DNA of 64,000 nucleotides from Corylus avellana (taxonomy: Eukaryota; Streptophyta; Magnoliopsida; Fagales; Betulaceae), in NCBI RefSeq assembly GCF_901000735.1, contig NC_081546.1, positions 18,971,220-19,035,219 on the forward strand, written 5' to 3'. The notes under the pieces are model-generated. The model was given only the letters and a program-made list of their open reading frames with translations, did no database searches and was not told the origin of the DNA. Within the stretch, counting starts at the first letter, position 1, and every line of letters starts with the position of its first letter. Below are positions 1,144 through 53,927 of this stretch, piece after piece. A program made the translations under genes and the position numbers.

Positions 1144-1910
1144 TTACGTTTAGATCTAGTCTTCTTGTTCATATTTCTACCTAATCAAATCATGCCATGC
1201 AAGATGCATCAATTTCCATCCTCTGCAGTATTCAGTATAAACTACAAAAATAGATACAAAAATTTAAGATATTCAAATCTCAATCATTATTTTAAAATTA
1301 AATGATAGACATTTTGGATTGAACAATATTTAGTATTTCATTAATAAATAGTGATAAATAATAAGGTAAAATCTATACCATTTCGGTCTTTTGAGCTAGA
1401 GGTTTCAATAAGTGCGATATAGGGGTATTGGTTAAAATCATTTAATTAGCTAAGTTTCCTCCTTTTTTTTTTTCTTTTTTTTTTCTCCTTTTCTTTCTAA
1501 TGTAATTGACTAAGCTTGACTATTCTATTATGCATGTCTATATTTTTACAGATTTGGCTTTAATTAGTAATCAGCTACATCATCAAATCAGATTCCATGC
1601 AATGTTGAAAATCATTTACTCTAACAGTCAATGTAATATTATAACTCATATTATTGATGGGACACTCCAACTTACATCATGTGCACACAAGACACCACGC
1701 TACACATTCCTCTCAAATATTAAGAAACCTAAACCCTAAATCCTAACCCTAACAAATATTTGAATTATCACCTGGTTGTCTTGCTTCCAAAATATTTGCA
1801 TGTATTTTTAGGGTTTGAGCTTAGATTTGCATAACTTCATTCTTAAGCAATAATTATATTTGTAAACTTATTTAAAGTCGCTTCTCATACATTTTATTCA
1901 TTATTTTTGT
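1144..1910. other. AT-rich region upstream of the transposase gene
   Basis: No coding signal. It contains a T-rich tract at 1459-1490 and a few telomere-like CCCTAAA/CCCTAAC words at 1730-1755. The 5' terminal region and promoter of the Mutator gene should lie here, but no inverted copy of it could be recognised by eye near 9240-10740. Confidence 0.5.
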
Positions 1911-4900
1911 ATGATGTCTTTGAATCTAGTGTTCGAGGTTAGGTATGGCGGTAGATTCGACAGAAGTTGTGGTTGCAATTACGTGGGGGGAGAAGTTGTT
2001 GTTCTTGGTGAAGGGTATGATCCTGACAACTTATCTTTTTTTGAGCTTGAAGATATTTGTAAAGACTACGGGTATAAGCCAGGGGATCTAATATACTTCA
2101 GAGAACCTGATAAGACGTTAATGGGGGGTTTGCATTTAATCAGCTCTGATGCCGACGTATTGTTCATGGTTGGCTGCCATAAAGGGCAATGTATTGTGCA
2201 TTTGTATGTCGTGTGTTTTGGGGAGGGTCATGGTGATGTTGAGGATTACGAAGGAGAAGATGACGATGAAGAGGAGGGAAGGGTTGATTACAATGACCTT
2301 TGGTGGAAAGGCAAACTCAGTGATGATGAGGATTTATTTGATGTAGATGTTGACGAAGGCTATACTAGAGCTGGAGCAACCGGAGTAGGAACTAGTGAGG
2401 CTGGAACCGTTGGTGATGGTGATGGTGGTTATGACAATGAGGGTGAGGAGGAAGAAACAGGTGATGAAGAAGATGGGAACCATGGTGAGGCCCGCAAAAT
2501 TGATGCTTCTATTAGGTCCGAAAGTGGGAGTAAGAAAAATAAAAAATTTGAAGAAGTAGATGATGGTGACACAAACTCTGAAATGGCTAGAAGTGACATA
2601 TTGGAGTCACCACCCCATAGTGATGAGGAAGCTGAAGGGACATCTACAAAAACGCCCGAATTTCATCGAATGGACCTAGTTAACCCAGAGCTGCATCTCT
2701 ACATGACTTTCCCAAACATACAAATATTTAGAGAAGCTGTTAAAGAGTACAATCTTTTGAGGGGCAAGGAAATTAGGTTCAAAAAGAATGAAAGAGGAAA
2801 GTCTATTGTTGTGTGTAGGGATGACAAGTGTCGGTACCGAGTATATTCAAGGTAGGTTTCTGATGAACAAACATTTTAGATAAGATCTATGCAGCCTAAA
2901 CATGTGTGTGGTAGGCAATACAAGAACTCCATTGTGAACTCAACTTGGATATTGAACAAGTTGATTGAGAAGTTCCGAATTCAGCCGAATATGCCCTTGA
3001 ATGTCATACAACATGAAGTGAAGGAAAAGTGGAAAGTGGATGTGAGTCCAAGTATGATGTACAGGGCTAGGGCCAAGGCATGTCAAAAAATATTCGGGAA
3101 GCTTGAAGACCAATATGGTCACCTGTGGGATTATTGCGAGACATTGAGACAAACGAATAGGGGAAGTTGTATGATGATGAAGGTTGACAGGCCAAACCCA
3201 AATGTGCTTTCAAAGTTTGGAAGATTGTATTTTTCTCTTGCTGCAATGAAGAAGGGGTTTCTGGATGGTTGTAGGCCTGTCATAGGGGTGGATGGATGCT
3301 TCCTGAAAGGGCCATTCAAGGGACAATTGTTAGCTGCAGTTGGAAGGGATGGGAATAATAATATGTACCCAATCGCATTTGCTGTTGTCGAAGCTGAGAC
3401 CAAGGACTCTTGGACATGGTTTTTGGAAACCCTAGTGTCCGATCTTGGAGTGCATGAAAGGGGCTGCAGACCTACATTTATTTCGGATAGACAAAAGGTA
3501 AGTTATGTTACATTTAATTTTTGCTCATAATTTTCAAATCACACTTAAACAAATTTGTTAAATAATTTTATTATTTTGGTCATTTTTTCATGCATTATGA
3601 ATTTGTTGTTCAGGGTCTCATGCCAGCTTTAGAGTCTGTGCCTCCAACGGCGGATCATCGAATTTGTGTTAGGCATCTGTATGCCAACTTCAGAGACTTG
3701 GAGGGCCATAAAGGATTGGCATTGAAAGAGTAGTTATGGGCTGCAGCAACCGCATACACTGAACATGAGTTTACAACTCATATGGAAGAATTAAAGAAAC
3801 TTAGTAAGGATGCATACGATTACTTGACCCCAGTGGGTGGTCTCGGGCTTGGTTTAATGAATCTCCAAGGTGTGAGTTGCTGGTGAACAATATATGTGAG
3901 TGTTTCAACTCATACATCCTCAATGCTCGTGACAAGCCTATTTTGACAATGTTGGAAATGATAAGAAAAAAGTTGTTGAGGAGATATCAGGCTAAGAGGG
4001 AAGGGATTGCGAAGTTGACAGGGAGGTTGTGCCCTAGGATTGTGCAAAAATTGGAGGCAATTGGGTTGGATGCAATGGACTGCATTGCAACCTATGCTGG
4101 TGATGGAATGTTTGAGGTTTCTGCTCCCAGCAACAAACAGTTTGTGGTAGACCTACGTAGAAGACGATGTGGTTGCAGGCAATGGGAAATCACTAGAATC
4201 CTCTGTCCCCATGCATTTGCTACTGTACTCTATGATTGTGGGAATCCGGAGGACTATGTTGATGAATGCTACACAATCGAGACGTACAAGAAGGCATATG
4301 CACCAATAATTTACCCAATGCCTAGTGAGGAACAATGGATAAAGACCAGACATGATCATTTGGAACCACCTACAATTAGAGTAGCCCCCGGGAGACCAAA
4401 GAGGTTAAGAAAGAGGGCTCCTAATGAGAGTAGGGACCCCAAAAATCCTAACCGAATTAGGAAATTTGGAGCAAGGATGAGATGTGCGAAGTGTACTGGT
4501 TTGGGTCACAATAAGAGGAGCTGTCCACTTAATCAATCTTCAGGAAGTCAGCTTAATACCCCCCCTACAGCAAGTGTAAGTGTTATTCAGCCCTATTAAA
4601 TCGTCCTTAATATATAACCTGGTTTTAACTAGCTTGTTTTAGACTTTGTATGACATGCTAATATTTGTTTCCAATTTTTTATGCAGTCACAAAGTGTTGG
4701 GTCCAATACTCGAACAACTGGTAAAAGCAAGGCACGTGTTGTGGGCAAGGTAGACATTTTTAGGCGTTTGTACTGCCATTTTTTTACGGTTTGTAGGCAA
4801 ATGTAGTCACTTGACAATTGTTACATTTGATGTTAGCAGAAAGCTAAGGCGGTGAAAAGTAGTGGCAATGGTGGTCCCAGCCAGTCATCAAATGCAGTAA

Positions 4901-5184
4901 AGGTACTTAGAAATGATGTTGTTTTAGTAGTAGGTTTTCTCATACCCAATGCATTTGCTAATTTTTATTAGTTCATAATTTGTTCTTACTTTGTATGGTC
5001 TTGTTTAGAATAAAGGGGACTTGAACAAGAACAATACAGCATCTGGGTCAACCACTAGTCTACAAGCATCCACCATACTCAAGGTACTTAACTATATGAT
5101 AGCCGTCTTTACTTTGTACATTTATTCACCAAAACTCTAATATGACATATAACATCTTTGCTACCATCTAGTACTTATTTATTT

Positions 5185-5226
<42 letters not shown>

Positions 5227-6015
5227 CATTTGTTGTTTTTGCAGAAGGATAAGGGGAAAGTTCAGCCTACACATGCTCCACGTGGATTTGTAATCCCCAG
5301 ACTTGTTGATGAAAGAGAGCACACACCTCCCCCTGGATTTGGAGCTGAAAGAGGAGCAACACCTCTACCTGTTGAAGACCAATATACCGATCTCGCCCCC
5401 TTTGAACCTGGGGCAGGAATTACCTTACCTGCAGCATGGGGTAGGGTGGAAGGTACAGAAGATGCCCTTGAAATTCCTGTAATGGTCACAGGAGGTCCTG
5501 CATCAAGGACTCGTACATCTAATAGGATTAGAGGTATTTTCCGTAGTACACCTACCAAGGCTCCTGTACATATGGACCTCACTGAAGTGGTCCTCGCTGC
5601 AACTCAACCTTCACGTACAGGGCCTAGAACTAGAGGTGGTGGAACTGGAAAGAAAACTATGGGTGGTGGACCTAGAAGGGCTAAAATGGGGAGGGGATTT
5701 GCAGTTCGAGGTGGTGGAGGCAGAGGTGGTGTAGGCATTGATGTTGCAGGCAGAGGTGGTGCAGGCAGAGGTGGTGTAGGCATAAGTGTTGCAGGCAGAA
5801 GTGGTGCAGGCAGAGGTGGTGTACTCATGAGTGTTGCAGGCAGAGGTGGTATAGCTGCACCTACTACTGCTGCACCTCCTCATGCTGCTGGTACTATAGC
5901 AAAGTCTGATACTATCGCAAAGTTGAAAGGAAAATGCATTACAACAACAGTAGAAAAGGGTATTGAAATTATGGAAGCCAAGAGGAAATGGCTCAATCCA
6001 CAATGGAAGCCGTAA
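1911..6015 (+). pseudogene. MuDR/Mutator-like transposase (mudrA type), decayed
   Basis: Six exons can be traced: 1911-3497, 3614-4575, 4687-4749, 4840-4902, 5009-5083 and 5245-6015, all with GT-AG borders and phase-0 junctions, about 1,170 residues. Order of domains: PB1-like N-terminus (YVGGEVVVLGEGYDPDN), acidic linker, MuDR DNA-binding N-domain ending KCRYRVYSR, MULE DDE core (GVDGCFLKGPFKGQLLAAVG, then ISDRQKGLMPAL, then NNICECFNSY), SWIM finger CGCRQW..ILCPHA, CCHC knuckle CAKCTGLGHNKRSC, and a Gly/Arg-rich tail in the last exon. It would cut and paste its own element in the nucleus. In-frame TAG stops lie at 2853, 2877 and 3731, and a one-base-type frameshift near 3835 moves WSRAWFNESP out of frame, so this copy is dead. 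A TA microsatellite (about 5187-5223) sits in the last intron. Start chosen at the first ATG before the PB1-like block. Confidence 0.88.
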
Positions 6016-6221
6016 AGTCATGGACAATTAGCCTTATGTGTTTTTTGTGGTTTTGATATGTTTCATTTTTTGTTTCAATTGTTAGTGTCTCTTGAAGTTG
6101 GTAATGTGTATGGATAACAATATATGTGATTTTCATTTGTAATGTGTATGGATAACAATATATGTGGTTGGTTGTTGGATATATGTATGGATAACAGCAT
6201 ATGTGGTAGGAAGTTGGTAAT

Positions 6222-6940
6222 GTGTTGCAGATAAGTTATGACTTGGTTGGAAGTAGGTCGGAAATATGTGGACATTTTTTGTATGGAAATTGTGAATGTG
6301 TTGCTTGGTTACTTGCTGCAGTTTTTTTTTGTTTAATATGTGGAGGTACATACTTTTTACTTGGTTGGAAGTATGATACAAATATTGAGATATTTGCATG
6401 GAAATTATTCATGTATTGCAGGCTTACTTACTTGTTGGAGATTGATTTTGGTTTAAGATGTGAACGTACATAGTTTTGACTTGGTTGGAAGTAGATGAAA
6501 GAAGAAATGTGGACATTTGTTTTATGGAAATTGTGAATGTGTTGTATGCTTGTAATTACTTGTTGTAGATTTATTTTTGTTTAATATGTGGAGGTACATA
6601 CTTTTTACTTGGTTGGAAGTAGGATACAAATATTGAGATATTTGCAGGGAAATTATTCATGTATTGCAGGCTTACTTACTTGTTGGAGATTGATTTTGGT
6701 TTAAGATGTGAACGTACATAGTTTTGACTTGGTTGGAAGTAGATGAAAGAAGAAATGTGGACATTTGTTTTATGGAAATTGTGAATGTGTTGTATGCATG
6801 TAATTACTTGTTGTAGATTTATTTTTGTTTAAGATGTGGAAGTACATAGTTTTTACTTGGTTGGAAGTAGGTTGGAAATGTGGACATTTTTTATGGAAAT
6901 TCTGGATGTATTGTAGGCTTAATTATTTGTTGAAGATTAT
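6222..6940. repeat. tandem repeat, period about 249 bp, downstream of the transposase
   Basis: Blocks such as GTGGAGGTACATACTTTTTA (6341 and 6589) and GAAATGTGGACATTTG (6503 and 6752) recur with a spacing of 248-249 bp. Within each unit the phrase ACTTGGTTGGAAGTA occurs about twice, suggesting an older half-size unit. Around 2.8 units are present. It lies in the presumed 3' UTR and intergenic part of the Mutator element. Confidence 0.8.
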
Positions 6941-7954
6941 TTTATGTTTACGATGTTTTCCTTTTCCGTTTCCATGATTTATAGTGTTATTGGGACTCAT
7001 TTTAAGTCATTAGCTTTAGATTTGCATATTTGAAATGATTATTTGTAGGGTTATGCACAAGGTTGGGGTTGGGGTTGGTTGATGATCTATCTCACGCTAA
7101 GTCATAACAATCTTGGCTTTGCATTTGGTGGTTTTAAATGATTGTATTATTGAATTTTCATAATATATGCTTGCAAGATCCGTGTGTGTGCTTGTGTGAT
7201 TATGTTGGCCCATGGACCAGAATATCTTAAAAGACTACAAAATTACTGCTTGGTTACCAAATTGCGCACTGATAAACTAAGATAAATTATCGAAGGCTTT
7301 TTTTGGTTGCTGTTTTTGTACCTATGCCACAAATCTAAGATGTGGTGAAGTTGATTTGTATCTCATGTCTTTCATAATGGGAATAGATTTTCATAATTCT
7401 CAACTCGGTTGTGGAATAAAAGGTTTTCCTTTTCAATAATTTGCAAGTCGGTAGTGGAATTGTCAAGCACGTGCATTATAATTCTATAGTAAATCGTCAT
7501 TATAACACCCATTTAAATTATAAAGGCCGAGGGGAATTTTTTTAATAAGGTGCTCCACTTGTAATGATAAATGTTATTTTTAAAAAGTAAAAAATAAAAC
7601 TCAAAATACCCAAGTGACTTTATGGTCAAATGCATGCCATACACGCAATTCATGTATACGTAAAACAGGAAATTACAGTCATAGCAACTAATAAATTCAT
7701 TAAAAGTACATTACATTTCAAATAAGCTTTTACAATTACACGGCTCTAAAACGTACGGCATTGTGCTCCCACAATTACTTATGTTACAAAACACCACATT
7801 GTGCTCCCAAAATAACACAAAAATAAAAAAAACACAATGTCATCTCAAAATTACATAGACCTCAGTTCAACTTCAAACAGCCAAGCTTGCATTCATACGG
7901 ACCACTTAAAGTATATCCAAACAACAAAATGACAATGACACTTAAACAAATTAC
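6941..7954. other. spacer between convergent transposase and GRF genes
   Basis: AT-rich with no coding signal on either strand. It would hold the 3' ends of both convergent transcripts. AAGCACGTGCATT near 7465 resembles half of the 331-349 palindrome. Confidence 0.5.
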
Positions 7955-9216
7955 TCAGAAACACGCAAGAATTGTTTGGTAATTCTTCTTAACTGCATGG
8001 AGTTTGATCTCCCTAGTCTCTGCTTCCTTCTGATACCGGGCAATTTCTTTATCCATTTCTACCTTCAAACACAGATTTTCTCTCTCCATTTCTACCTTCA
8101 CCTTATTGACTTCAACTTGAACCATGTCTTCACACCGCTTTGCTTCTGACAACAATTTTTGGTGCTTTTGCCAGAACCAAGTTCCAACCCTTTTACATTT
8201 CGCACACAGCTCAGGATCAACCCATTCAAAGTAACCATAATCTCGGTTGATCTATAAAATAGTAAACAAGTATTAATCACCAATCTAAACACATAAAATA
8301 TTACACATACCCATTTTTTTATAGTTACATATAAAATGGGTAAATGGTGAAGTTTTTTTCACAATCAATTTTTTTTTTTCCGCTACACTATCGAATATGA
8401 TAGTGTAGTTGATAAACCAAAATCCATAAAATTCAATACCTAAACCCTAAACCATTACTCAAGCATCACGCCTAACCATTACACATAAAATTTTAAAATG
8501 CATAAACCTTATGGATGCTCTTATATATTGACAATAGAAGCCATGAGCGAGAAGTATGGCATGTTCAAACCCTAAACCCTAAACAAATTATAACAAATAA
8601 CTAAACCCTAAAATAACCCAACAAAGAACCCACAACCATCACTACTCAACTTAAACACACATAACCAACAACGAAAATTAAAACCATAACCAAGACATTA
8701 TCAATACTTACCCAAAACCCTAAAGAACACCCTATAAAAATTACAACCATAAACAAGAAATGGATAAAGAGTTTGAAGAACTTGCCCAAATTTTGGTTTT
8801 CAACCATTACACAAGCATCACACCTAAACAAATTATAACAAATAACTAAACCCTAAAATAACCCAACAAAGAACCCACAACCATCACTACTCAACTTAAA
8901 CACACATAACCAACACCGAAAATTAAAACCATAAACAAGAAATTCAAACAAGAAATTATCAATACTTACCCTAAACCTTAAAGAACACCCTACAAAAATT
9001 ATAACCATAAACAAGAAATTACGTGTTTGAAGAACTTGCCCAAATTTTTGCAACACTCATCATAAACATAAAACGTGCCTTGTAATTTTTGCAACCCACA
9101 AACCTCCTCCCAAAATTGTGCTCTATTTGAGCTGTTTTTACAACCATCGGCCGCTCACAGTAACAAAGCCTCTGCGATGAACATGAAGCTCCAGAACTTG
9201 AAGTATACTCCATCAT
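7955..9216 (-). CDS. GRF-type zinc-finger protein with coiled coil, two exons
   Basis: Exon 1 (9216-9079) encodes MMEYTSSSG..LCYCERPMVV, then HNFGRRFVGCKNYK; exon 2 (8251-7955) continues INRDYGYFEWVDPELC and then a charged heptad-like helix (EVNKVKVEMERENL), total about 144 aa. This is the GRF zinc-finger family (At4g04775-like): CxC, GRRFxGC and GYFxW. These small proteins are thought to bind nucleic acid; their plant role is unproven. The fourth metal ligand, normally Cys before GYF, is Tyr here (TAT for TGT), so zinc binding may be impaired. The only in-frame junction uses a GC donor (AAG|GCACGT) with a TTTATAG acceptor, a rare but known intron class. An in-frame ATG at 9234 is possible, but the second copy lacks it. 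The gene converges on the Mutator transposase and may be that element's second gene (inference). Confidence 0.7.
8583..9000. repeat. 248-bp tandem duplication inside the GRF gene intron
   Basis: The segment beginning AACAAATTATAACAAATAAC occurs at about 8583 and again at about 8831, and both run through the same stretch about CCATCACTACTCAACTTAAA to CTTGCCCAAATTTT. Short CCCTAAA words occur in both. This enlarges the intron to about 830 bp. Confidence 0.85.
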
Positions 9217-9682
9217 TGCTCTCTCTCTTCGCAATAAATCAATACAAGGGGAAACAAAAATTTGTTAACAATAAATCAACATCACAGAGTTAGGGATAAC
9301 CAAATTAAAAACCCCCTCAAGAAAACCCCAATTTACGAAAAACCCTAGAACGATACTACACATTTCGGTGTAAATTTACAAATCAAATAAGGGCAAAAAC
9401 TTACCTCGTCGTACACAAATGCGCAAAGCTCCAAACTTTGGGTTGATCTCGAGTGGGTGTCGGGTAGCTTGTCGCGTGGCTGTCGGAGGTGGGTTCTACC
9501 TCTCTCGGGTCCCTTTCGCTCGTGACTCAGCAACGTCCTCCCCTCCCTCGTGCGTGCTGGGTTTTTCCAGACCTTTTCAGTTTTGTTTATTTGCTGTTTT
9601 AACTAAGTTTAAGTCTGGGTTGGGTTGGGTTGGGGGTTGGGTCAGCAGGGTCGGGGCGTGGGTCAGCTGGGTTTGGGCGTGG

Positions 9683-9782
9683 NNNNNNNNNNNNNNNNNN
9701 NNNNNNNNNNNNNNNNNNNNNNNNNNNNNNNNNNNNNNNNNNNNNNNNNNNNNNNNNNNNNNNNNNNNNNNNNNNNNNNNNN
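9683..9782. other. assembly gap (100 N)
   Basis: Gap placed between the two copies of the GRF 5' region. Sequence on its right side (from 9783) matches sequence from about 8738, well inside the first copy, so the join could be a scaffolding artefact or a real tandem duplication. Confidence 0.98.
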
Positions 9783-10733
9783 AAATTACAACCATAAACA
9801 AGAAATGGATAAAGAGTTTGAAAAACTTGCCCAAATTTTGGTTTTCAACCATTACACAAGCATCACACCTAAACAAATTATAACAAATAACTAAACCCTA
9901 AAATAATCCAACAAAGAACCCACAACCATCACTACTCAACTTAAACACACATAACCAACAACGAAAATTAAAACCATAAACAAGAAATTCAAACAAGAAA
10001 TTATCAATACTTACCCTAAACCCTAAAGAACACCCTACAAAAATTACAACCATAAACAAGAAATTATGTGTTTGAAGAACTTGCCCAAATTTTCGCAACA
10101 CTCATCATAAACATAAAACGTGCCTTGTAATTTTCGCAACCCACAAACCTCCTCCCGAAATTGTGCTCTGTTTGAGCTGTTTTTACAACCATCGGCCGCT
10201 CACAGTAACAAAGCCTCTGCGGTGAAGATGAAGCTCCAGAACTTGAGGTATACTCCATCATTTCTCTCTCTCTTCGCAATAAATCAATATACAATAGAAA
10301 ACAAGAATATGTTAACAATAAATCAACATCACAGAGTTAGGGATAACCAAATTAAAAACCCCCTCAAGAAAACCCCAATTTACAAAAAACCCTAGAACGA
10401 TACTACACATTTCGGTGTAAATTTACGAATCAAATAAGGGCAAAAACTTACCTCATCGTACACAAATGCGCAAAGCTCCAAACTTTGGGTTGATCTCGAG
10501 TGGGTGTCGGGTAGATTGTCGAGTGGCTGTCGGAGGTGGGTTCTACCTTTCTCGGGTCCCTTTCGCTCGTGAGTTAGCAACGTCCTCCCCTCCCTCATGT
10601 GTGCCGGGTTTTTCTACACCTTTTCAGTTTTGTTTATTTGTTGTTTTAACTAAGTGTAAGTCTGGGTTGGGTTGGGTTGGGGTTGGGTCAGCAGGGTTGG
10701 GGTGTGGGTCAGCTGGGTTTGGACGTGGGTTAG
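9783..10733. repeat. second copy of the 8738-9682 segment
   Basis: About 950 bp nearly identical to 8738-9682. It covers part of the GRF intron, exon 1, the 5' leader with a GAG|GTAAGT donor-like site near 10450, and the G/T-rich stretch of TGGGTTGGG-type words ending in GTGGG. Differences are scattered single bases. It could be an unpurged alternative haplotype or a true tandem copy. Confidence 0.85.
10124..10261 (-). pseudogene. GRF zinc-finger exon 1, duplicate without exon 2
   Basis: Encodes MMEYTSSSGASSSPQRLCYC, then FGRRFVGCENYK, matching exon 1 at 9079-9216 with a few substitutions and the same GC donor at the exon end. No second exon follows before the gap at 9683-9782, so the GYFxW half of the finger and the coiled coil are missing. 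If the gap hides sequence the copy might be longer. As shown it is a partial duplicate. Confidence 0.7.
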
Positions 10734-10779
10734 GGTGTAACCACTTGATGGGGGTATTTTGGGCACAAAATCGCATAAA

Positions 10780-10839
10780 GTGATCACGTGCGACGCACGT
10801 GATCACTGTTCCGTCAGTCAAAGCGGCTTTGACTGACGG
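10780..10839. repeat. two adjacent perfect palindromes
   Basis: First (10780-10806): arms GTGATCACGTGCG and CGCACGTGATCAC with one central A. Second (10811-10839): arms CCGTCAGTCAAAGC and GCTTTGACTGACGG with one central G. Only four bases separate them, so the 60 bp can form two consecutive hairpins. CACGTG cores are also G-box words. No gene can be assigned to them. Confidence 0.9.
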
Positions 10840-10844
10840 AATGC

Positions 10845-10901
10845 CTGAATTGCGAAAAATTGAAACTTTAGGGGGGTGGATTGCAAAAATTGAAACTTTG
10901 G
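10845..10901. mobile_element. fragment of a foldback element related to 53344-53764
   Basis: The phrases AAATTGAAACTTTAGGGGGG and GTGGATTGCAAAAATTGAAA match the inner terminal repeat of the foldback element at 53344-53764. The preceding GGGGTATTTTGGGCA block (10751-10765) may correspond to that element's GGGGCAATATGGG block. The assembly gap at 10902 truncates it. Confidence 0.6.
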
Positions 10902-11001
10902 NNNNNNNNNNNNNNNNNNNNNNNNNNNNNNNNNNNNNNNNNNNNNNNNNNNNNNNNNNNNNNNNNNNNNNNNNNNNNNNNNNNNNNNNNNNNNNNNNNN
11001 N
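10902..11001. other. assembly gap (100 N)
   Basis: Third 100-N placeholder; it interrupts a foldback-element fragment. Confidence 0.98.
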
Positions 11002-12562
11002 CAAAATATTAAAGTAATTAGTAAAAACATAGAGTTAAACATAAGAAACCATTTCTCTACCGCTTTTACCACCACTGTGCTCATCTTTATGCTAGTATTA
11101 CGCTAACTTCAATTTTTTTTACCTAGCTGTACGTGATCCCAAAATAACAAATGTTCAGTTATATTTCAATTTCAATAACTAATACAAATATTTTTTAAAA
11201 ATGAATGATCAATTATCCCAAAATAACAAATGCTCAATTATAAAAATGAATTTTTTTAGGGAGACCCTACTATGCGGTCGATCTGCAAACAATGCCTTTT
11301 GCAGCATCCAATATTTGACTAACACATCACCTTTTTACACAAGTACACAATAAAACTAAAACACCTAATAAATTCCTCTTCTCTTTAATAAATCAAATGG
11401 GTTTAAATTTTTCCTCTTCTTCTTCTCTGAAACACGCTTCTCCTCTTCTTTTTCCATGTTCGTCGATTTTTTCATGTACTGAAAGGGTTGCAGCGCACAC
11501 GATGGGGTCTTGCCAAACCCATCGTGAACGCCCAGCAGCGTTCTAGGTTGGCTTTTGTCGTTTGGGTTGGCGTTCTGGGCGGTCAGGCGTTTAGCCAAAC
11601 CCATGCCAGAATGCTGGTCGGTAGCGTTCTGGGCGTTCTGGGTTGGGTAGCTGGGCGTTCTGTCAAACCTATGCCGGTTGTCTAGGTTGGGCGATTGGGC
11701 TTTCCGGGCGGCAGCAGAAACGCCCCCCTCCCTCGCTCCTGTCTCTCTCTCTCACTCCGGCTCAAGCGTCCACAGCCTCCACCTTTCACCGAAAGAGAAA
11801 CCTGAGTCACCAAGCCACCATCTGGCGCCACACGTTTGCTGGTTTGCCGAGAAGAGCTTGGGTTGGGTTTTTTATAAATCGAAAGAAATAAAAATTTATA
11901 ATACCCACTAAATTTAATCTCTCAATATCAAATAGAGGCAAGTCCAAGTAATAATCATTCAACAAAATTGAAAAAACAGAGCTTGAGCAGTGGAAAAAAA
12001 AAAATTGAAAAAAATAAAATAAAAAAATTGCAACAAACTCACCTTGCTAAAAGGAACAAACCAACAAAAAAAATATGCCGAATACGATTGAGCGTTGGGT
12101 AAGGGCGGCAGCGATTGGGCGAGGCTTTGAGCAGGGGTGTGTCTTAGTTTGTTAGGGATGAATAAGATAAACAATGGGTATATTAGTGTTTTTATTCCAG
12201 TGTTGGAGGTCTCATTCTATTAATTGTATCTAGCTTAGGTGTACATCTTCTATTGGTTGCTGCAATACTTAGCTTTTGCAGGTGGACCGCATAGCAGGTT
12301 TTCCCATTTTTTTTATATTTTTAAATTTGGGCACCCTTTAAATTTTTTGTTTAATTTTTTTTTTTTTTTTTTTTTCAGTTTTAGGTTTTTTCTGGAAGTT
12401 TTATTATTATTACTATTATTATTTTTTATTTTACTAAGGGTAGTTTCGTCATTGTTGGGACATTGACAATATTTGGTAATTTTGGAGGAACATTGTCGCA
12501 ATTGAAAGTTTGGGGGACATTGTTAATTAGGTAGTAGTTTGAAGGGTATGTGGACTTTCCCC

Positions 12563-14627: not shown

Positions 14628-15760
14628 TCAGCATAAAGTTTTGGGCAGCAGGAAAACACTCATAGTGTACGTCAGAATTGCTTGTACCACGGCCTTAAAC
14701 AGCACCTCATTCCCAGCTTGAGACAAGAACTTCTCTTTCCAGCCATATATTTTTTCCCAGATCCGCTCCTTTATCCCCTCAAAAGATTTAGTGCTATACC
14801 TCCCAACAAGCGCTGGCAGCCCTAGATATTTTTCATACCGTTGGGTAGAAGCCACCCCTGCAATCTGAGATAAGACCCCTCGAGCTTCGGTACTAGTGTT
14901 ACGGCTAAAAAATATGGAAGTCTTCTCTTTGTTAAGTTTTTCACCCGAAGCATTCTCATACCTTTCTAGTACCTGAAGTAAGCATGACAGTTCAGCCTCC
15001 TTAGATCTGCAAAATAAAAGACTGTCATCCGCGAAGGAAAGATGATTCAACCGCATACCACCTCGAGTGATAGGCAAACCCATTATACCTCCTTCCCTCT
15101 CCACCCTGTTAAGGGCTATACTGAGCCCTTTAGCACATAGTATGAAAAAGTATGGTGATAGAGGGTCTCCTTGCCTCAGGCCACGCGTAGGGGTGATCAT
15201 CCCATATGCTTGCCCATTAATGAGGACCGAGTATTTGACCGTGCACACACAAGTCATAACTAGATGAACCAATCTATCCGCAAATCCAATCCTCTTCATC
15301 ACCGATTCCAGAAAATCCCATTCAACCCTATCGCAGGTCTTGCTCATGTCTAATTTTAAAGCCATGTACCCTTCCTTTCCCATCAACCTTGTGTCCATGG
15401 TATGCAAGGCCTCAAAAGCAATGAGCACATCATAAGTGATGAGTCTTCCAGGGATAAAAGCACTTTGATTAGAGGATATGATAGCTGCCAAAATCATATT
15501 TAGTCTATTTGCCAACACCTTGGCAATGAGCTTGTAGATGACATTACATAGGCTTATTGGGCGATATTCCGTAATACGGGATGGGTTTTTGATCTTAGGT
15601 ATCAGGGCAATATTGGTTACATTTATTGCTGCATCAGAAACATCATCATTCAAAAATTCAAGAACTGCTTTACAAACATCACTACGTACCGTACTCCAAG
15701 ATCGTTGATAGAAATAGGCTGAGAAGCCATCCGAACCTGGAGATTTGAGAGATGCATCTG
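14628..15760 (-). pseudogene. LINE reverse transcriptase
   Basis: Conserved blocks in order: SPGSDGFSAYFYQRSW, NVTNIALIPKIKNPSRITEY, RPISLCNVIYKLIAKVLANR, NQSAFIPGRLI, ALKLDMSKTCDRVEW (first catalytic Asp), GLRQGDPLSPYFFILCAKGL and SFADDSLLF, where FADD stands for the usual YADD. A frameshift lies near 15745 between the linker and this domain. The enzyme would perform target-primed reverse transcription. This copy is broken. Confidence 0.9.
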
Positions 15761-16390
15761 TACAAGCACCTTATCTACTTCCACCATCTCGAATATGCTG
15801 AACAACCTAGAGTTCATACCTTCCGTCACCCTTGCCTGCATGCCTCCTAAAAACTCCTCCATTCCTTTGGTGTCACTGATTTTGAATAGCTTTTCATAGA
15901 AAGAAACAAATGCTAGGCTGATTTCTTCAATCTTTGACCATTCTTGCCCTTCATCGTTAATAATCCATTTGATAGTGTTGACTCTTCTACGGTGGCTAGC
16001 CCATGCATGGAAGAATGGTGTGTTTCGATCCCCATTGTTGTACCAACTTTGTTTGGCTCTTTGTTTCCACCTTGTATCTTCATGAACCAACAAAGAATCA
16101 ATGTCTTCTTGAAGCTTCTTAATGGCCGTATGCTGCTCGAGTCCCTCCAATTTTTGCAGTTCGGCTAGCTCCTTAGTTTTTTCCTTTACTACAGACTCGT
16201 TTTTCCCAAATTTGGATTAGCTCCACCACTGGAGCTTGGTCTGGCAGCTTTCTAATTTCCTTCTCACCGTCTTCATAGCTCCACCGCCCACACCTTCCTC
16301 TTCCCAAACCCCCTAGATAATCTCCCCACACTCCTTATCAGGTAACCAACTGGCTTCAAGTTTAAACCCCCTCCTTCCGCCTCTTTCCCT
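15650..16390 (-). pseudogene. LINE endonuclease-to-RT linker
   Basis: Contains the family signature RAKQSWYNNGDRNTPFFHAW followed by ASHRRRVNTI, typical of plant L1 ORF2 between endonuclease and reverse transcriptase. Upstream the frame EASWLPDKECGEII continues but is broken by a TAG and a TAA. Confidence 0.8.
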
Positions 16391-16392
16391 TT

Positions 16393-17175
16393 TCAATTTG
16401 TATTAAAAGAGACAAGCAACGGATTGTGGTCCGAAGACCTGGTTGCCAAAACAAAGACACTTGCTGATTTATGCATACCACACCAACCACTATTTCCAAC
16501 CACTTTGTCCAACCGTTCTTGGGTGAAGCTCCCATCTTGACGTTTGTTAGTCCAAGTAAACCTAGGGCCCGAGAACCCCAGGTCACCCAACAAACAATCC
16601 TCAAGAACTGTTCTAAACGAAGCCATCAGCCCCTCTTGCATCCTGTTTGTGCCTAATTTTTTGGATTGGTGCATTATTTCATTAAAATCCTCAACACAAA
16701 GCCATGGTATAGGGGAGAAAACCTTTTGGTGTGAAAGAAGGTCCCATGACTCCTTTCGTTTTGCTGGATCAGGGTTGCCATAAAAGCCCGTAAGCTTCCA
16801 CGATAACGCATCCTCGCGTAACGTCATAATAGCATTTATGTGTCTCCGAGAGTAATTTTGAATTTCAAGTTCCTCCACAACCTTCCACATGAGTTCTAAC
16901 CCTCTACTTCTTCCCATAGGTTCTACTACAAAGAAACCTGCAAAACCAAGCTTAATTCTCAAACTTTCCATTCATTTTTTATTACTGATAGTTTCCACCA
17001 TAAATAAAAAGCTAGGCTGCTTTTCCATCACCAATTGGCAAAGATTACAAATTGTCTGGGGGTTTCCAGGCCCTCGGCAGTTCCAACTTATGAGACTCAT
17101 TGGGTCTGGCGAGGCTACGCCGCAGCCTCCACCAATACATTGTTGTCCATTCCCTACTTTCTCAGTCCCCTGCAA
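16393..17175 (-). pseudogene. LINE apurinic/apyrimidinic-type endonuclease
   Basis: Begins MSLISWNCRGPGNPQ, then LFMVETIS (catalytic Glu region), TGFYGNPDPAKR, EDFNEI, FSGPRFTWTNKR and the terminal SDHNPLLV. One in-frame TGA at 16972 separates the first 42 residues of the domain from the remainder. This enzyme nicks target DNA to start insertion. Upstream (17154-17471) a low-complexity charged linker leads back to the ORF1 remnant. Confidence 0.88.
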
Positions 17176-18745: not shown

Positions 18746-19486
18746 AATTGTTAAAACATGACATGTTTCGCTAACACATATAGTCCTAATTGTAGCATCT
18801 CACATCTTGTTTTAGGTTGACATGGGACTTTACACTATCCTATTCAACTGGCTAAAAGCCTCGCCTGTTTGGAGTAAGGAGGATAAAAGGAAAGTATGAC
18901 TAAAAAAGTTTTAATCTCAAAATTCATGTTCTACTAACACTTAATATTAAAATAATTTGCTTGGATTTTGTAGGTAACAAATGGATTGGTCGGCATGAAT
19001 TACATATATTGCTCTCATAGCGGAATACCTCGACAATTATACAATGCATACGAGAGTAAATTCAAAGGTATGACTTCAAAATTTAGTTATTTTACTTAAA
19101 TATTTTTGGCATAGGATGAATCATTCATTAACGTAATGTTACAGAAGAGCAAATATAAGTCGAATGAAGTGGTCATCCACTGGTGACACGACATTTACCG
19201 CGGATACTACAATGACTCAAAATAGTAGCATGAGCTTTAATGGCATTCATTGGTAGAAATGCATGCTTCCAGTTAATCAGTATTGGGCTGGGCTGGACAT
19301 CAAAACCATTTGATAACGTCTCAGAAGTCATAGGCGTCTCTTGGTCCCTTAGAAGAACAGTTGAAAATCATAAAGCTGCAAAGAACATCACTATCCAACC
19401 GGACAACAATAATTTTGTTGACCAAAATTTTAAGGAGCTAAAGAGAAAAATGACAAAGAAAAATGATAAAAATAAATAAAAATAAA
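18746..19486. other. intergenic DNA with one exon-like segment
   Basis: 18974-19067 is bounded by TTTGTAG and AAG|GTATGA and reads VTNGLVGMNYIYCSHSGIPR, then QLYNAYESKFK, without a stop. I do not recognise the protein. No neighbouring exon could be identified. The rest shows no coding signal. Confidence 0.25.
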
Positions 19487-22297
19487 AATCCAAAGACAAC
19501 CCCATTGAGATGGCCTTAAAGGTGATGGTGGATTCCCTTGAAGCTCATTCTGAGGTTGTGGTGACGTATATTCCTCGGGTTCAGAACACTGCAACAAATT
19601 TTTGGCATCGTTGGCAAGAAAATTGTCATGTGAAGTAATGAAATATGGCTTTGCCAAAAATAAGTCTCCTAAATACAAGAAATTCTCAGATGGCCAGTAA
19701 AAAGAGGATCTTGACATGGTTAACTTGCTGCAAAAATCTATAATATGGGAAAATAGTATTCCGAGGGTTTTGAAGAAAATGCTCCTAGAATATCTACTTT
19801 TGACTATACTCGAAGTAAAAGAAGAAAAAGACTATGAAGTGATTAGGGTGATGTGTGCAACAATTATTCAACCTTAACCAAAATCCATAAAAGATTTAGA
19901 AAAGTTGATGAAAAGTATCACTTTTTATTTAAAAATTTTCTTTAAATATTTTTCATGAGTATTTTCTAATGTTGATTTTCCTTCCTTCAAGACTTGTTGA
20001 ACAACTAGAAATGGGAAATGTAGAGAATATTATTTAGAGATGCAAGTCAAACACAATGATTAAAGAAGAAAGACGAGGAAAAATGCTAAAAAAGAATCCG
20101 AAGACAACTCCATTGACAATGCCTTAAAGGTAGTAGTGGATTCACTTGAAGCTCATCGTGGGGTTGAGGTGATGTATATTTCTTGGGTTCATAACACGGC
20201 AGCCAATTTTTTGGCATTGTTGACAAGAAAAATGTCATGTGAATTAATGAAATATGACTTTTCCAAAAACAAGCCTTCTGAATACAACACATTCTGGGAT
20301 GGCGAGCAAAAAGAGGATCCTGACAATGTTTGCTGCAAAACTCCATGATATGGGAAAATAGTATTTCGAGCGTTTTGAAGAAATTGCTCATAAAAGATCT
20401 ACTTCTGACTACTTTTGAAGTAAAAGAAGAAAAAGACTATAAAGTGATTAGCGAGATGTGTGCGTAAATTATTCAACCGACATCGAAATTCAAAGAAGAT
20501 TTAGAAAATTTGATGAAATGTAGAACTTTTGTTTGAAATATTTCTTTAAATTTTTAAAATGAGTATTTTCAAATGTTGATTTTCCTTCCTTCAGGACTTG
20601 TGGAACAACTAGAAATGGGAAATGTAGAGCAGATTATTTGGAGATACAAGTCAAACACGATGATTAAAGAAGAAAGACGAGGAAAAATGATTAAAAAAAT
20701 TTAAAATTTAAAATTTAAAATTTAAAAAAAAAAAATTAAAAATTTTAAAATTTTTAAAAAAGAATCCAAATACAACCCTATTGACAAGGCCTTAAAGGTG
20801 ACGGTCGATTCACTTGAAGCTCATCCTGAGGTTCTAGTGACCTATATTCCTCGGGTTCATAACACCGCAACCGATTTTTTGGCATTCTTGGCAAGGAAAT
20901 TGTCATGTGAAGTAATGAAATATGACTTTGCCAAAAACAAGTCTATTACAAGACATTTTGGAATGGCAAGCAAAAATAGGATCCTGACATGATTAACTTG
21001 CTGCAAAAATCCTTGATATGGGAAAATAGTATACTAAAGGTTTTTTTTTAAAAAATTGCTCCTAGAAGATCTACTTCTAACTACTCTTGAAGTAAAAGAT
21101 GTAAAAGACTATGAAGTGATTAGCGTGATGCGTGCAACAATTATTCAACCAGCACCAAAATTGAGAGAAGATTTAGAAAAGTTGATGATCACTTTTTATT
21201 TGAAATATTTCTTTAAATATTTTGAAAAATGTCATGTGAAGTGATTAACTTGTTGCAAAAATTCATGATATTGGAAAAATACTATTCTGAGCATTTTGAA
21301 GAAATTGCTCCTAAAAGATCTACTTCTGACTACTTTCGAAGTAAAAGAAGAAAAAGACTATGAAGTGATTAGTGTGATGCATGCATAAATTATTCAACAA
21401 GCACCAAAATACAAATGAGATTTTGAAAAGTTGATGAAAGGTATAACTTTTTATTTGAAATATTTTTATTGAGTATTTTATAATGTTGATTTTCTTTCCT
21501 TCAGGACTTGAGGAACATCTAGAAATGGGAAATGTACAGCAGATTATTTGAAGATACAAGTCAAACACGATGATTAAAGAAGAAAGACGAGAAAAAAAGG
21601 CTAAAAAAGAATCCGAAGAAAACCCCATTGACGCGACCTTAAAGGTGGCGTTGGATTCACATAAAGCTCATCCCGAGGTGGTTGTATTGTATATTCCTCG
21701 GGTTTAGAACACCGCAGCCAATTTTTTGGCATTGTTGCTAAGAAAATTTTCATGTGAAGTAATTAAATATGATTTTTCCAAAAACAAGTCTATTGAATAC
21801 AAGGCATTCTAGGATGGCCAGCAAAAAGAGGATCCTGACATGGTCAACTTGCTGCAAAAATCCTTGATATGGGAAAATAGTATTATGAGGGTGTTCAAGA
21901 AATTGCTCTTAGAAGATCTACTTCTTACTACTCTCGAAGTAAAAGAGGCAAAAGACTATGAAGTGATTAGTGTGATACGTGCAACAATTATTCAACTAGC
22001 ACCAAAATTGAGAGAAGATTTAGAAAATATGATGAAAGCTATCACTTTTTATTTGAAATATTTGTTTAAATATTTTGAAAATGTCATGTGAAGTAGTTAA
22101 CTTGCTGCAAAAATCCATGATATAGGAAAATTGTATTCCGAGCGTTTTAAAGAAATTGCTCATTGAAGATCTACTTCTGACTACTTTCAAAGTAGAATAA
22201 GAAAAAGATTATGAAGTGATTAGCGCGATTTGTACATAAATTATTCAACCAGCATCAAATTCCGAAGAAGATTTAGAAAAGTTGATGAAATGTATCA
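19487..22297 (+). repeat. tandem array of 0.6-0.85 kb units with degraded reading frame
   Basis: Units begin AATCC(A/G)AA at 19487, 20095, 20763 and 21609. Each carries the frame DSLEAHPEV.VTYIPRVHNT, then FLA.LARKLSCEVMKYDF, then LLQKS..WENSI and KDYEVISVM. Extra 3'-half copies lie at about 21235-21608 and 22083-22297. The IPRVxNTAxxFLAxLA segment resembles the end of a Ty3/gypsy RNase H domain (IPRxxNxxADxLAxLA), so the unit may derive from a polyprotein; the rest is unrecognised. Every unit has stops. Copies differ by many substitutions, so the array is old. Confidence 0.8.
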
Positions 22298-22299
22298 TT

Positions 22300-22505
22300 T
22301 TGCAAGTTGGGGGTGGCTGGGCCACCCCCAACTTGCAACCCCCAAGCCAAACGAGGGTGGCTCAGCGACTTCCAAGGTTCTTAGGGGTGGTTCGGCCACC
22401 CCCATTTTGCAAGTTGGGGGTGGCCAAACCACCCCCATAGGCCATAGGGTAGCTTTGAGCCACCCCTTAGCTAAAATGGGGGTGTCCGGCCACCCCCAAT
22501 TTTCA
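22300..22505. repeat. GGTGGC/GCCACCCC hairpin cluster
   Basis: A chain of inverted GGGGTGGC and GCCACCCC words. The first hairpin (about 22301-22336) pairs GCAAGTTGGGGGTGGC with its complement around a short loop. Flanking DNA to the right (22613-22850) looks like one arm of a foldback element; no matching left arm is seen because the tandem array abuts it. Confidence 0.7.
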
Positions 22506-25033: not shown

Positions 25034-26211
25034 ATGCTCTTATCCAATTATTTTGATTTCAGTTCAAACTAAGGTTGTGTTTGTTTATATTAAATATTTA
25101 TAGAATGTCACTTTTCTGTTCAGACAGAAAATGGCTTGAATATGTATACACATGGTTGATATGTTCCAAGGAGTGCATGAGTTTGTAATTTTGGATTTGA
25201 AAGAAGCATACGAAAGTGAGGAATTCAGAATTGGATATACAGGAAAAGTCTGATTTTCACTTATGATATAGGTTTTTATGTTGACTCAAAATTGGTGTTA
25301 CATTGTCATACTTATTGAACTTAATTGTCAAAAGTTTTGGTATGTTGAGTTCTTTTTAATTAATATCTTGCAATTTACTTTGTCGAGAAATGAAAGGAAC
25401 CACTTATTATTAAATTCTACTGTGTCCACCCATGTTAGTTGGACTGATTTTTTTGGGGTACTTGGATATTTTTGTCGAGCTTTACCTTAATTCTATTAGT
25501 TTTCCATAGTATGTAAGCTTGAAACACAACACCTTATTGATCACATCAACTAGGCTAATTCCATATACACAAAAGCCAATTGTTGATTTCCATTTATATT
25601 GATTTCTTCCTACTGCATGGGAACTTGACTGGAAGAAAAATTCATTTAGAATATTCTTTCGTCCTAAAGCTGATTTTGAACTTTGTATCACAGATTGAAT
25701 TTGAGTTCCTCTAAGTTCTACGTGTCAGATTGATGGTTTTTTCTTTTTTTGGGTCTTCTGTATCTTTTTTTTTTTTTTTTTTTTTTTCTTCTATGAATAA
25801 CTTAACACTTGTTGACGTGACATTGTATTAGAGTGTTTATGACGTGTCAAATGAGACATGTGGCAGATAACAAACTATTAACTTTGACGGTGAAGTAACA
25901 GATGTACCTATTTTAAATTTGAGCAAAACATAAGGACTAAATTTAAATGAGATGAAAACCTTGGGGCTAAATATGATTTTTCTCTTAATTTTATTACGTT
26001 ACTTATTTTATACACTTAATATTTTAGAAGTATTCTTTAATCTTTCACCTTAATTCTTTAGAGCCAAGCAAGCGGCCGAAACTGCAAATAAATCATTGAA
26101 ACAGCATACCGCTTACGTCTTGTTTGTCATGTGGGTTCAACACTTCTCCTGGGGGTGGGTATGACTATGAGCATCTAGCTGCATCCCCCATCGAAGTTGA
26201 ACCGTCTTTCA
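25034..26211. other. region upstream of the PPR gene
   Basis: AT-rich. 25790-25990 (CTTGTTGACGTGACATTG through GGGGCTAAATATGATTTTTC) resembles one arm of a foldback element without its partner. No TATA box for the PPR gene could be assigned. An in-frame TAG at 26176 closes the frame above the PPR start. Confidence 0.4.
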
Positions 26212-28251
26212 ATGACCTACTTTGTGATTGCTTGGAGGAGAATCCGAATGCGCAGCCCATACTTGGCTGTTTATGGACTTAGGAATATGCAGCCCTTTTG
26301 TGGTTGGCCAATGTTGACTCGCATATCTAACAATGGGTCTGTTCCATCAATTTCTTTCACCTCAGCTTCGATACCCAAGAGTTCTTTTCGGGGCACAGAC
26401 TTATATTCATTAAATAAAAAGATCTCCCATTTGATCCGGACTGGTCGGCTTTGTGAAGCGAAAACCGTGTTTGATAATGCGAAGCACCGAAACACTGTTA
26501 CCTGGAATTCAATGATAAGTGGGTATGTCCAACAAAGAGAGCTGGCCAAGGCACGTAAGTTGTTCGATGAGTTGTGTGAAAGAGATATTGTGTCGTGGAA
26601 CTTGATGATATCAGGTTATATATCGTGTCGTGGAAGTAGGTATATTGAGGAGGGGAGGACCTTGTTTGATAACATGCCGGATAGAGATTGTGTTTCGTGG
26701 AACACGATGATCAGTGGGTATGCAAAGATTGGCAAGATGGATGAAGCCTTAGTCCTTTTTAATAGTATGCCTGAGCGGAGTGTCGTTTCTTGGAATGCTA
26801 TGATTACTGGCTTTTTACATAATGGTAATGTAGAGCGTGCTATTGAGTTTTTTGAACGAATGCCAGAACGGGATGCGGCTTCTCTTAGTGCACTTTTATC
26901 GGGTCTTATTCGGAATGGTGAATTGGATAAAGCTTCAAAAGTTCTGACTGAACACGGTAACAAGGATGAAGCCAGAGAAGATTTAGTGCATGCATATAAT
27001 ACTTTGATAGCTGGCTATGGTCAGAGGGGAAGGATTGAAGAAGCTCGACACCTTTTTGATCAGATTCCATTTTGTCCTGATGGAGGTAAGGAGGGAAATG
27101 GGAGGTTCGAGAGAAATGTGGTATCATGGAATTCTATGATTACGTGCTATGTGAAAGCGAGAGATATTGCTTCTGCCAGGGAACTTTTTGACCTCATGAC
27201 AGAAAGAGATACTTTTTCCTGGAATATTATGATCAGTGGCTATGTCCATTGTTCAAATGTGGAAGAGGCCTCAAAACTCTTTAGTAAAATGCCAAATCCT
27301 GATACCCTGTCATGGAATACAATGATCTCAGGGTCTATGGAAATCGGTAGTTTAAAACTTGCTAATAATTTCTTTGAGAGGATGCCCCAGAAAAACCTGG
27401 TATCGTGGAACTCCATGATAGCAGGGTATGAGAAAAATGAGGACTATAAAGGAGCGGTTAATTTCTTCACTCAGATGCTACTTGAAGGAGAGAAACCTGA
27501 TAGACACACTTTGTCTTCAGTTCTCAGTGTGTCTACTGGGTTGGTGGATCTTCACCTGGGTATGCAGATTCATCAGTTGGTCTCAAAGACAGTTCTTCCA
27601 GATGTGCCCATAAATAACTCTCTCATTACCATGTATTCAAGATGTGGGGAAATAAACCAGGCACGGACCATTTTTGATGAGATGAAACTAAAGAATGATG
27701 TGATCTCCTGGAATGCAATGATTGGAGGTTACGCATCTCATGGATTTTCTGAACAGGCACTTGAACTTTTCAAATTGATGAAAAGGCTTAAAGTGCGGCC
27801 TACATATATAACATTTATTTCGGTTTTGAATGTGTGTGCTCATGCAGGATTAGTTGAAGAAGGTCGGAAGCAATTCAAATCCATGTGTAGTGAATATGGT
27901 ATAGATCCACAGGTTGAACACTTTGCTGCCCTTGTGGATGTTGTGTGTCGACATGGGCAGCTTGAGGAGGCCATGGATTTGATCAATAGGATGCCATGCG
28001 AACCAGATACGGCTGTGTGGGGTGCATTATTAGGTGCTTGTAGGGTGCATCACAATGTAGAGTTGGCTGAAGTTGCAGCTGAAGCGTTGATGAGACTTGA
28101 ACCAGAAAGTTCGGCCCCATATGTGTTGCTATATAATTTGTATGTTGATATGGGACAGTGGGACAGTGCAGCAAAATTGAGAACGATGATGGAAAAAAAA
28201 AAGATCAGAAAGCAACCGGGGTATAGTTGGGTTGATTCTTCGTGTTTCTGA
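26212..28251 (+). CDS. MEF9: PPR protein of the PLS/E class, MEF9-like mitochondrial RNA editing factor
   Basis: Single exon, 679 aa from the first ATG after an in-frame TAG at 26176. An N-terminal stretch rich in Arg, Ser and Thr and poor in acid (about residues 1-70) suits a mitochondrial targeting peptide. Repeated pentatricopeptide motifs follow, such as TVTWNSMISGYVQQRELAKA, VSWNTMISGYAKIGKMDEAL and VSWNAMITGFLHNGNVERAI. The C-terminus is an E domain (AVWGALLGACRVHHNVELAE to KQPGYSWVD) with no DYW deaminase. Repeat order and text match Arabidopsis At1g62260/MEF9, which is needed for C-to-U editing of mitochondrial nad7; the ortholog is slightly longer. E-class proteins need a partner deaminase. 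The frame is intact. Ortholog assignment is from memory of the Arabidopsis protein; function here is inferred. Confidence 0.9.
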   Translation: MTYFVIAWRRIRMRSPYLAVYGLRNMQPFCGWPMLTRISNNGSVPSISFTSASIPKSSFRGTDLYSLNKKISHLIRTGRLCEAKTVFDNAKHRNTVTWNSMISGYVQQRELAKARKLFDELCERDIVSWNLMISGYISCRGSRYIEEGRTLFDNMPDRDCVSWNTMISGYAKIGKMDEALVLFNSMPERSVVSWNAMITGFLHNGNVERAIEFFERMPERDAASLSALLSGLIRNGELDKASKVLTEHGNKDEAREDLVHAYNTLIAGYGQRGRIEEARHLFDQIPFCPDGGKEGNGRFERNVVSWNSMITCYVKARDIASARELFDLMTERDTFSWNIMISGYVHCSNVEEASKLFSKMPNPDTLSWNTMISGSMEIGSLKLANNFFERMPQKNLVSWNSMIAGYEKNEDYKGAVNFFTQMLLEGEKPDRHTLSSVLSVSTGLVDLHLGMQIHQLVSKTVLPDVPINNSLITMYSRCGEINQARTIFDEMKLKNDVISWNAMIGGYASHGFSEQALELFKLMKRLKVRPTYITFISVLNVCAHAGLVEEGRKQFKSMCSEYGIDPQVEHFAALVDVVCRHGQLEEAMDLINRMPCEPDTAVWGALLGACRVHHNVELAEVAAEALMRLEPESSAPYVLLYNLYVDMGQWDSAAKLRTMMEKKKIRKQPGYSWVDSSCF

Positions 28252-53115: not shown

Positions 53116-53343
53116 ATAAGAATAACACACTTTGGTAATTAGATGAGCTACTTTAGCACATTTTAAACATTGGGCTCTTTTAAAAACAGTTGCTAGTGAG
53201 GGCTCTTTTTTTATATTTTTCCGTTTAAATAAATTATTTGTTTTGAAAATTATAGAAGAGAAATTTTGGAAAGAAGGCTCACATCATACAATGTAACCGG
53301 TTAGATTTGATTTAGTTATTGAGCCATTGACTCATTGTTTCAA

Positions 53344-53764
53344 GGGAAAATTACAATTTACCCCCCAAAGTTGACAACATTTTTCAATTCGAACACCAAA
53401 GTTTCAATTTTTGCAATCCACCCCCCAAAGTTCCAAATTTTTGTAATTTGACCAATTGTATCCAAAACTTCCCATATTGCCCCTACTTTTTATTTTTTTA
53501 TTTTTTATAAAAAATTTTAAAAAAATTCAAGGTGGCCGTAGCCACCCCTTTGCCCATCTGGCCATTTTTGCATCTCCAATTTTTTTTTTCATAAAAAATA
53601 AAATAAAATTAAAAAAAATCAGGGGCAATATGGGAATTTTGGGATAATATTGGTCGAATTGAAAAAAATTGAAACTTTGTGGGGGTGGATTGCAAAAATT
53701 GAAACTTTGATATTCGAATTGAAAAATGTTATTAACTTTAGGGGGTAAACTGTAATTTTTCCTT
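53344..53764. mobile_element. foldback MITE with GGTGGC core
   Basis: Arms of about 115 bp: AATTACAATTTACCCCCCAA, then ACATTTTTCAATTCGAA, GTTTCAATTTTTGCAATCCA against their complements on the right. Core CAAGGTGGCCGTAGCCACCC near 53530. GTTTC occurs directly outside both ends, a possible 5-bp duplication, but the ends are ambiguous by a base or two. Confidence 0.8.
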
Positions 53765-53927
53765 GTTTCTAACTGTAAAATTGTAAAATTTTTACAGATA
53801 TAGACTACTAACCTTATAAGATTCACAAGGCGATCTCATCTATCAGAATCGGAAAAGCTTTAGCCAGTATGTTAGTTGCCATCAGGTGTCACTTTTGTAA
53901 TATTTTACTAGTGTTGGGTGTAATATG

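Follow-up and report, generated by a model that had tools for sequence, protein, structure and literature searches.

Does a mudrA-type transposase gene that faces a small GRF zinc finger gene in European hazel form a single mobile element with it, or are the two genes only neighbors? The question arises from a stretch of 64,000 nucleotides of the Corylus avellana genome (C6:18971220-19035219, hereafter the window), in which a first-pass annotation had noticed a plus-strand transposase and a minus-strand GRF gene converging on a spacer of about 1.9 kb with tandem repeats. It had seen no matching terminal inverted repeats and had only proposed that both genes belong to one element. From a scan of 369.9 Mb of hazel sequence in 12 contigs, we conclude with high confidence that the transposase and GRF genes form a two-gene unit, one Mutator-like DNA transposon of hazel. 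The window holds what is left of one copy, with its principal parts arranged as follows.

1144-10901, plus strand: what remains of the two-gene Mutator-like element, with 100-N assembly gaps on either side (1044-1143 and 10902-11001).
1914-6015, plus strand: pseudogenised mudrA-like transposase gene, recognized from PF03108, PF10551 and SWIM, from its reading frames and from an 18-copy comparison.
6234-6956, no strand: tandem array between the convergent genes, in units of about 120-128 bases, also found in several other copies.
7955-8251, minus strand: GRF exon 2, with the second half of the finger and a coiled coil (acceptor TATTTTATAG/ATC).
9079-9216, minus strand: GRF exon 1, with the start codon and the first three zinc cysteines, from reading frames and locus comparison.

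The gene content agrees with the first description. The transposase in the window scored above the cut-off for PF10551 (MULE, 44.9 bits), PF03108 (DBD_Tnp_Mut, 28.5 bits) and SWIM (20.0 bits), and these MULE/MURA transposase domains place it among the Mutator-like elements (MULEs); its zinc knuckle was sub-threshold at 19.2 bits (cut-off 22). Relatives of this transposase were found in Corylus and Alnus. The GRF protein of the window gave 24.9 bits against PF06839, slightly below the cut-off of 25.9, and the GRF gene of another locus, L046, gave 35.5 bits with its exons joined, which identifies it as a member of the GRF finger family. The transposase stop and the GRF stop are 1.94 kb apart.

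A check already proposed by the first-pass annotation was to look for a convergent GRF gene beside other copies of the transposase. As transposase probe we used the window exon 2880-3527, for which 150 of 508 candidates genome-wide were scored; with GRF exon 2 as probe, 150 of 190 candidates were scored and yielded 135 matches, or 114 loci once neighboring pieces were merged. A GRF locus within 12 kb of a transposase match was counted as a neighbor. Such a neighbor was present for 56 of the 150 transposase matches, in all 56 cases downstream and on the opposite strand, and 53 of the 56 lay no more than 6.1 kb away. The genes were paired in 14 of 19 matches with at least 89% transposase identity to the window, in 30 of 41 at 70-88%, in 9 of 69 at 60-69% and in 3 of 21 at 50-59%, the pairing extending to about 56% identity. 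Viewed alone the window would suit a chance neighborhood, in which a MULE landed next to a GRF gene of the host or the GRF gene next to a MULE, given that neither a 5' repeat nor a target duplication is visible there. When GRF positions were moved around the contigs in 500 trials, however, a mean of 1.02 neighbors and a maximum of 7 resulted, compared with 56 of 56 nearby pairs in the same order and orientation. As a second control we took the 150 best PF10551 matches of 614 candidates, with zero overlap with the first transposase list. Only 2 of these 150 other MULEs had a GRF match within 12 kb, and because both were upstream they do not show the two-gene plan. On the uniform orientation and these two controls, we rejected chance neighborhood; with the target duplications described next, which lie outside both genes in seven of nine copies, we give it practically no probability.

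Further evidence comes from the ends of the element, which we read in 11 paired copies with at least 85% transposase identity (5' flanks, n = 11; 3' flanks, n = 10). On the 5' side the copies cease to match at GGGAAAATTACAGTTTA..., and on the 3' side at the mirror image of this sequence. Long terminal inverted repeats of the kind that mark MULEs are present in these other copies, aligning over 686-698 bp with 94-95% identity in two of them. For a third copy, with the comparison limited to 484 bases of one repeat, the aligned length is 466 bp and the identity 84%. In all nine copies read at both ends, one end precedes the transposase and the other lies past GRF exon 1, so that they enclose both genes as one unit; the 5' end of the remaining two of the 11 copies shows a gap. 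Among the nine copies with both flanks readable, seven carry a perfect 9-bp target-site duplication, within the 8-11 bp of MULEs, and an eighth matches at 8 of 9 positions within an A run. In a flank control of 72 pairings between different copies, the best match was likewise 8 of 9. No end with a duplication fell between the two genes, and a scan of ten internal loci, which covers the interior only in part, revealed no terminus-like motif. Six measured elements are 8.3 to 17.0 kb long. Membership of both genes in one element, which the first-pass annotation had put forward as conjecture, is thus borne out in the copies that retain their ends.

The window itself retains one end.

10266-10901, plus strand: 3' terminal inverted repeat, with its outermost approximately 53 bases lost in the gap at 10902.

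Aligned with positions 54-679 of the 5' repeat in the C1:24.26 Mb copy, this repeat shows 86.5% identity (643 columns). The 5' repeat is absent from the window, and six other copies align to it from 1144 or later and never to 1-1043. A search for inverted repeats within 1150-11300 returned no matching pair, as at first reading, where none was seen because the 5' repeat is lost at the gap and only the 3' repeat survives. In other copies the repeat reaches close to the genes: its alignment stops some 8 bases short of the GRF ATG in the copy at C7:11.23 Mb and runs up to the ATG itself in the copy at C5:0.18 Mb. The terminal repeat holds a donor-like GTGAGT; the AGG immediately 5' of the transposase ATG at 1914 in 16 of 18 copies would give the acceptor TTTTTGTAG, and TTGCAAAG stands immediately 5' of the GRF ATG. 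The repeats may thus supply a common promoter and a non-coding first exon to both genes.

Several observations weigh against a single two-gene element. The flanks of the C5:0.18 Mb copy agree at only 5 of 9 positions and show no duplication, and one of the seven perfect duplications is a plain TA run. The element borders were placed by eye, and a terminal-base mismatch was tolerated in four copies. Ends were read only at 85% identity or above, and the more remote pairs are given by distance and strand alone. Two transposase matches on C6 share a single GRF locus, so the 56 pairs are not fully independent. Of the 19 closest transposase copies, five lack a GRF match within 12 kb; two of these, L010 and L015, can be aligned to the window only up to a point within the gene, as is also true of L011, which does have a GRF match. 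Below 70% transposase identity only 12 of 90 matches have a GRF match, so most of the remoter lineages are without the gene or have one too diverged to detect. Finally, the ratio of nonsynonymous to synonymous substitution rates (dN/dS) on GRF exon 2 has a median of 0.62 over 63 pairs, against 0.54 and 0.66 in off-frame controls, and yields no sign of selection on the exon.

The last two observations, together with stops in the GRF gene of many copies, also favor a different history, in which the GRF gene was captured once in the style of a Pack-MULE and has since hitch-hiked without a role. Captured fragments usually decay fast, however, and this pairing is seen at transposase identities from 100% down to about 56%; six paired GRF loci with only 26-30% match to the window exon have frames that stay open over 116-132 codons. 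Shorea, a genus of a different plant order from hazel, also retains the membrane segment and CSW motif of the protein, described below. We therefore consider a passenger without a role improbable. The two genes also appear to have diverged together. Across the 56 pairs, GRF identity is lower where transposase identity is lower (Spearman 0.91, the pairs being non-independent), and in a transposase tree of 45 copies, the 15 most distant of which had been chosen for carrying GRF, the GRF identities sort by clade (84-100, 70-75, 49, 36-52 and 26-35%). Distance matrices of the two genes correlated with rho 0.58 for 14 close pairs (16 of 2000 permutations as high) and 0.54 for the 11 closest pairs (73 of 2000 as high).

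The copy in the window is itself a relic, with defects in both genes, no 5' end and a 3' end truncated at gaps. Its transposase gene is distributed over the following parts.

About 1914-2852, 2856-3500 and 3616-3883, plus strand: transposase coding pieces, from the reading frames.
3808-4576, plus strand: transposase piece in another frame; further exons reach the stop at 6013-6015.
5708-5850, plus strand: 45-base repeat that encodes a Gly/Arg/Val-rich transposase tail, from repeat scan and translation.

Three TAG codons interrupt the gene. In the other copies the equivalent codon is CAG in 14 of 18 (position 2853), 17 of 18 (2877) and 15 of 18 (3731), and at each of the three sites one other copy also has TAG. 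All three stops can thus be read as C-to-T changes at CAG, a pattern that would fit the decay of methylated DNA. The reading frame is shifted because a stretch of 10 bases near 3840, kept in 17 of the 18 other copies, has been deleted. The apparent ATG at 1911-1913 is AGG in 16 of the 18, AGA in one and ATG in one, and the start common to the copies looks to be 1914. With three stops and this deletion, the window copy lacks the intact transposase of an autonomous element; across the transposase exon, frames of 541-554 codons remain open in seven other copies that are 96-98% identical. The copy at C7:11.23 Mb (L019) stops at codon 314, the same codon as in the window, and has a perfect 9-bp duplication. 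It seems to carry the defect of the window copy and yet to have transposed, which suggests mobilization of defective copies in trans.

The GRF gene of the window has likewise decayed when read against 29 other loci. Its fourth zinc cysteine is replaced by tyrosine, with cysteine kept in 29 of 29 other loci, and its frame stops ahead of the membrane segment, as in 3 of the 29, with N at the site in 2 more. The donor of exon 1 is probably of the GC type (AAG/GC). Two further repeats involve this gene.

8578-9048, minus strand: repeated stretch within the GRF intron, whose copy number differs among other elements.
9783-10728, minus strand: second copy of 8738-9682, 95.8% identical, on the other side of a 100-N gap (9683-9782).

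The GRF introns of L040, L046, L047 and L062 also contain repeats, in units of about 245-260 bases and varying copy number. The duplicated stretch includes a second GRF exon 1 at about 10263-10126. Whether this doubled 5' end is a true tandem duplication or an overlap in the assembly is evenly balanced in our judgment: the two copies differ by 4.2%, and internal repeats have also been expanded in L040, L046 and L061, as a true duplication would have it, but both copies abut the 100-N gap, one on each side, and in L049 and L057 one single stretch matches both duplicated stretches of the window.

Further members or relatives of the family lie close by. A second element of the family in the same orientation (C6:18966338-18966628 and L096, at C6:18968000-18971219) terminates, with its 3' repeat, about 2.6 kb upstream of the window start, and its GRF exon contains two stops. 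Within the window, at 53341-53765, a palindrome-like element of 425 bases has ends resembling the termini of the two-gene family and is possibly a miniature non-autonomous relative.

What might the GRF protein contribute to such an element? In copies that retain all four cysteines, it comprises about 175 residues, arranged as a finger, a long helix, a membrane segment and a short tail. The hydrophobic segment has 19 residues, and its mean hydropathy, calculated for seven proteins, ranges from 1.8 to 2.7. Among the 27 relatives recovered by a profile search are one from Carpinus fangiana and P0125 of Shorea laevis, the latter with 48% identity over 88%. In an alignment of 17 relatives, the membrane segment opens with an invariant VCSW and is directly preceded by a nearly invariant KKNY motif; many hazel loci have ACSW in place of VCSW. 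Shorea laevis P0125 and metagenome relatives conserve both the membrane segment and CSW. An AlphaFold model of P0125, built on the alignment of 17, had a mean predicted local distance difference test (pLDDT) score of 68 and predicted a helix over residues 74-161, the finger not being resolved. A transposase relative (P0052) and a GRF relative (P0138) each come from a metagenome contig of 27,495 bases, likely one and the same contig. Scans of viral contigs for the transposase and GRF protein gave no confirmed relatives.

The closest enzymatic parallels are the GRF domains of APE2, NEIL3 and topoisomerases, with which the hazel protein shares a C-x-C...C...C zinc ribbon. These are enzymes of repair or topology, and the GRF domains of repair enzymes bind single-stranded DNA. 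A profile search of the PDB with the GRF protein returned two weak matches, both to NEIL3 chains (E 0.04 and 0.14). The hazel finger differs in its setting: a long helix and a membrane segment accompany it, and its gene is part of a transposon.

With these properties the element may work as follows. The 5' repeat presumably drives the MURA-type transposase, and the 3' repeat, reaching to about 10 bases or less from the GRF ATG, presumably drives the opposing GRF gene. The transposase would cut and insert the element, and the GRF protein would assist; its finger would bind DNA, probably single-stranded, and the membrane segment would anchor it at the nuclear envelope or the endoplasmic reticulum. 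We tentatively favor, at somewhat short of even odds, an accessory helper of transposition that plays a part like that of MURB in maize MuDR. A factor against silencing or for interaction with the host, by analogy with VANC of Arabidopsis Hiun, is unlikely though a serious competitor. The accessory genes of plant MULEs do include an anti-silencing one, VANC (PMC6446971), and a membrane anchor would suit a host-pathway factor better than one acting in the synaptic complex; a zinc finger of the DNA-binding type, however, suggests contact with nucleic acid. We would thus rank the helper first, the anti-silencing factor second and the passenger without a role third.

Comparison with known systems sharpens what is distinctive here. 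MuDR has long terminal repeats and makes 9-bp duplications. Its transposase is accompanied by a second gene in opposite orientation (PMC9168764, PMC6446971), and the hazel element resembles it in that the transposase faces a second gene within one element. Unlike in MuDR, the second gene of hazel encodes a GRF zinc finger with a membrane segment, in measured copies of 8.3-17.0 kb. The first-pass annotation regards mudrB as unrelated to GRF fingers. A further parallel is Abermu of barley and other plants, a MULE with an opposite-strand ORFR which in type II elements lies between the transposase and the 3' repeat; in PMC9168764 its duplications are described as mostly 9-bp and A+T-rich, its ORFR as diverging faster than the transposase and of unknown function, and the element of Sedum album, the only complete dicot one reported, as without ORFR. 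By that description, the hazel element is like Abermu in being a MULE with an opposite-strand second gene and 9-bp duplications; the same text names no GRF (0 occurrences, PMC9168764). VANDAL/Hiun and plant mobile domain (PMD) ORF MULEs of plants carry an accessory open reading frame or domain, often antisense, and the accessory motifs listed for plant MULE groups are PMD, DUF, FAR1 and unknown open reading frames; GRF is not named in that account (0 occurrences, PMC6446971). Among the papers listed in literature searches, with Repbase and subscription journals outside their scope, none had a title or opening of its abstract that described a GRF gene in a MULE.

The window contains other features that were recognized by eye or by repeat comparison. 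Broken reverse transcriptase and endonuclease frames resembling those of a long interspersed nuclear element lie at 14628-16971 on the minus strand, by eye from their translations, and an open frame of 684 codons at 26197-28251 on the plus strand resembles, also by eye, a pentatricopeptide-repeat gene. A large direct-repeat array occupies 19446-22301, in which the longest pairs measure roughly 0.6-0.85 kb and are 82-85% identical.

Taken together, these data make it reasonably probable that the hazel element represents an undescribed two-gene class of eudicot Mutator transposons with a membrane-anchored GRF accessory factor, and that this class explains much of the abundance of small GRF genes in plants. 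The first-pass annotation had already suggested that plant GRF genes are numerous because they travel in Mutator elements. For hazel this holds to the extent that 61 of the 114 loci resembling the window GRF exon lie within 12 kb of a transposase match of this lineage, a partial test of the broader claim for plants. A group of small plant GRF genes thereby gains a likely identity as transposon genes, with the caution for annotators that such genes may not be host genes but parts of transposons. The Mutator superfamily gains a new type of accessory protein, and the role of the second Mutator gene becomes testable in a second system.

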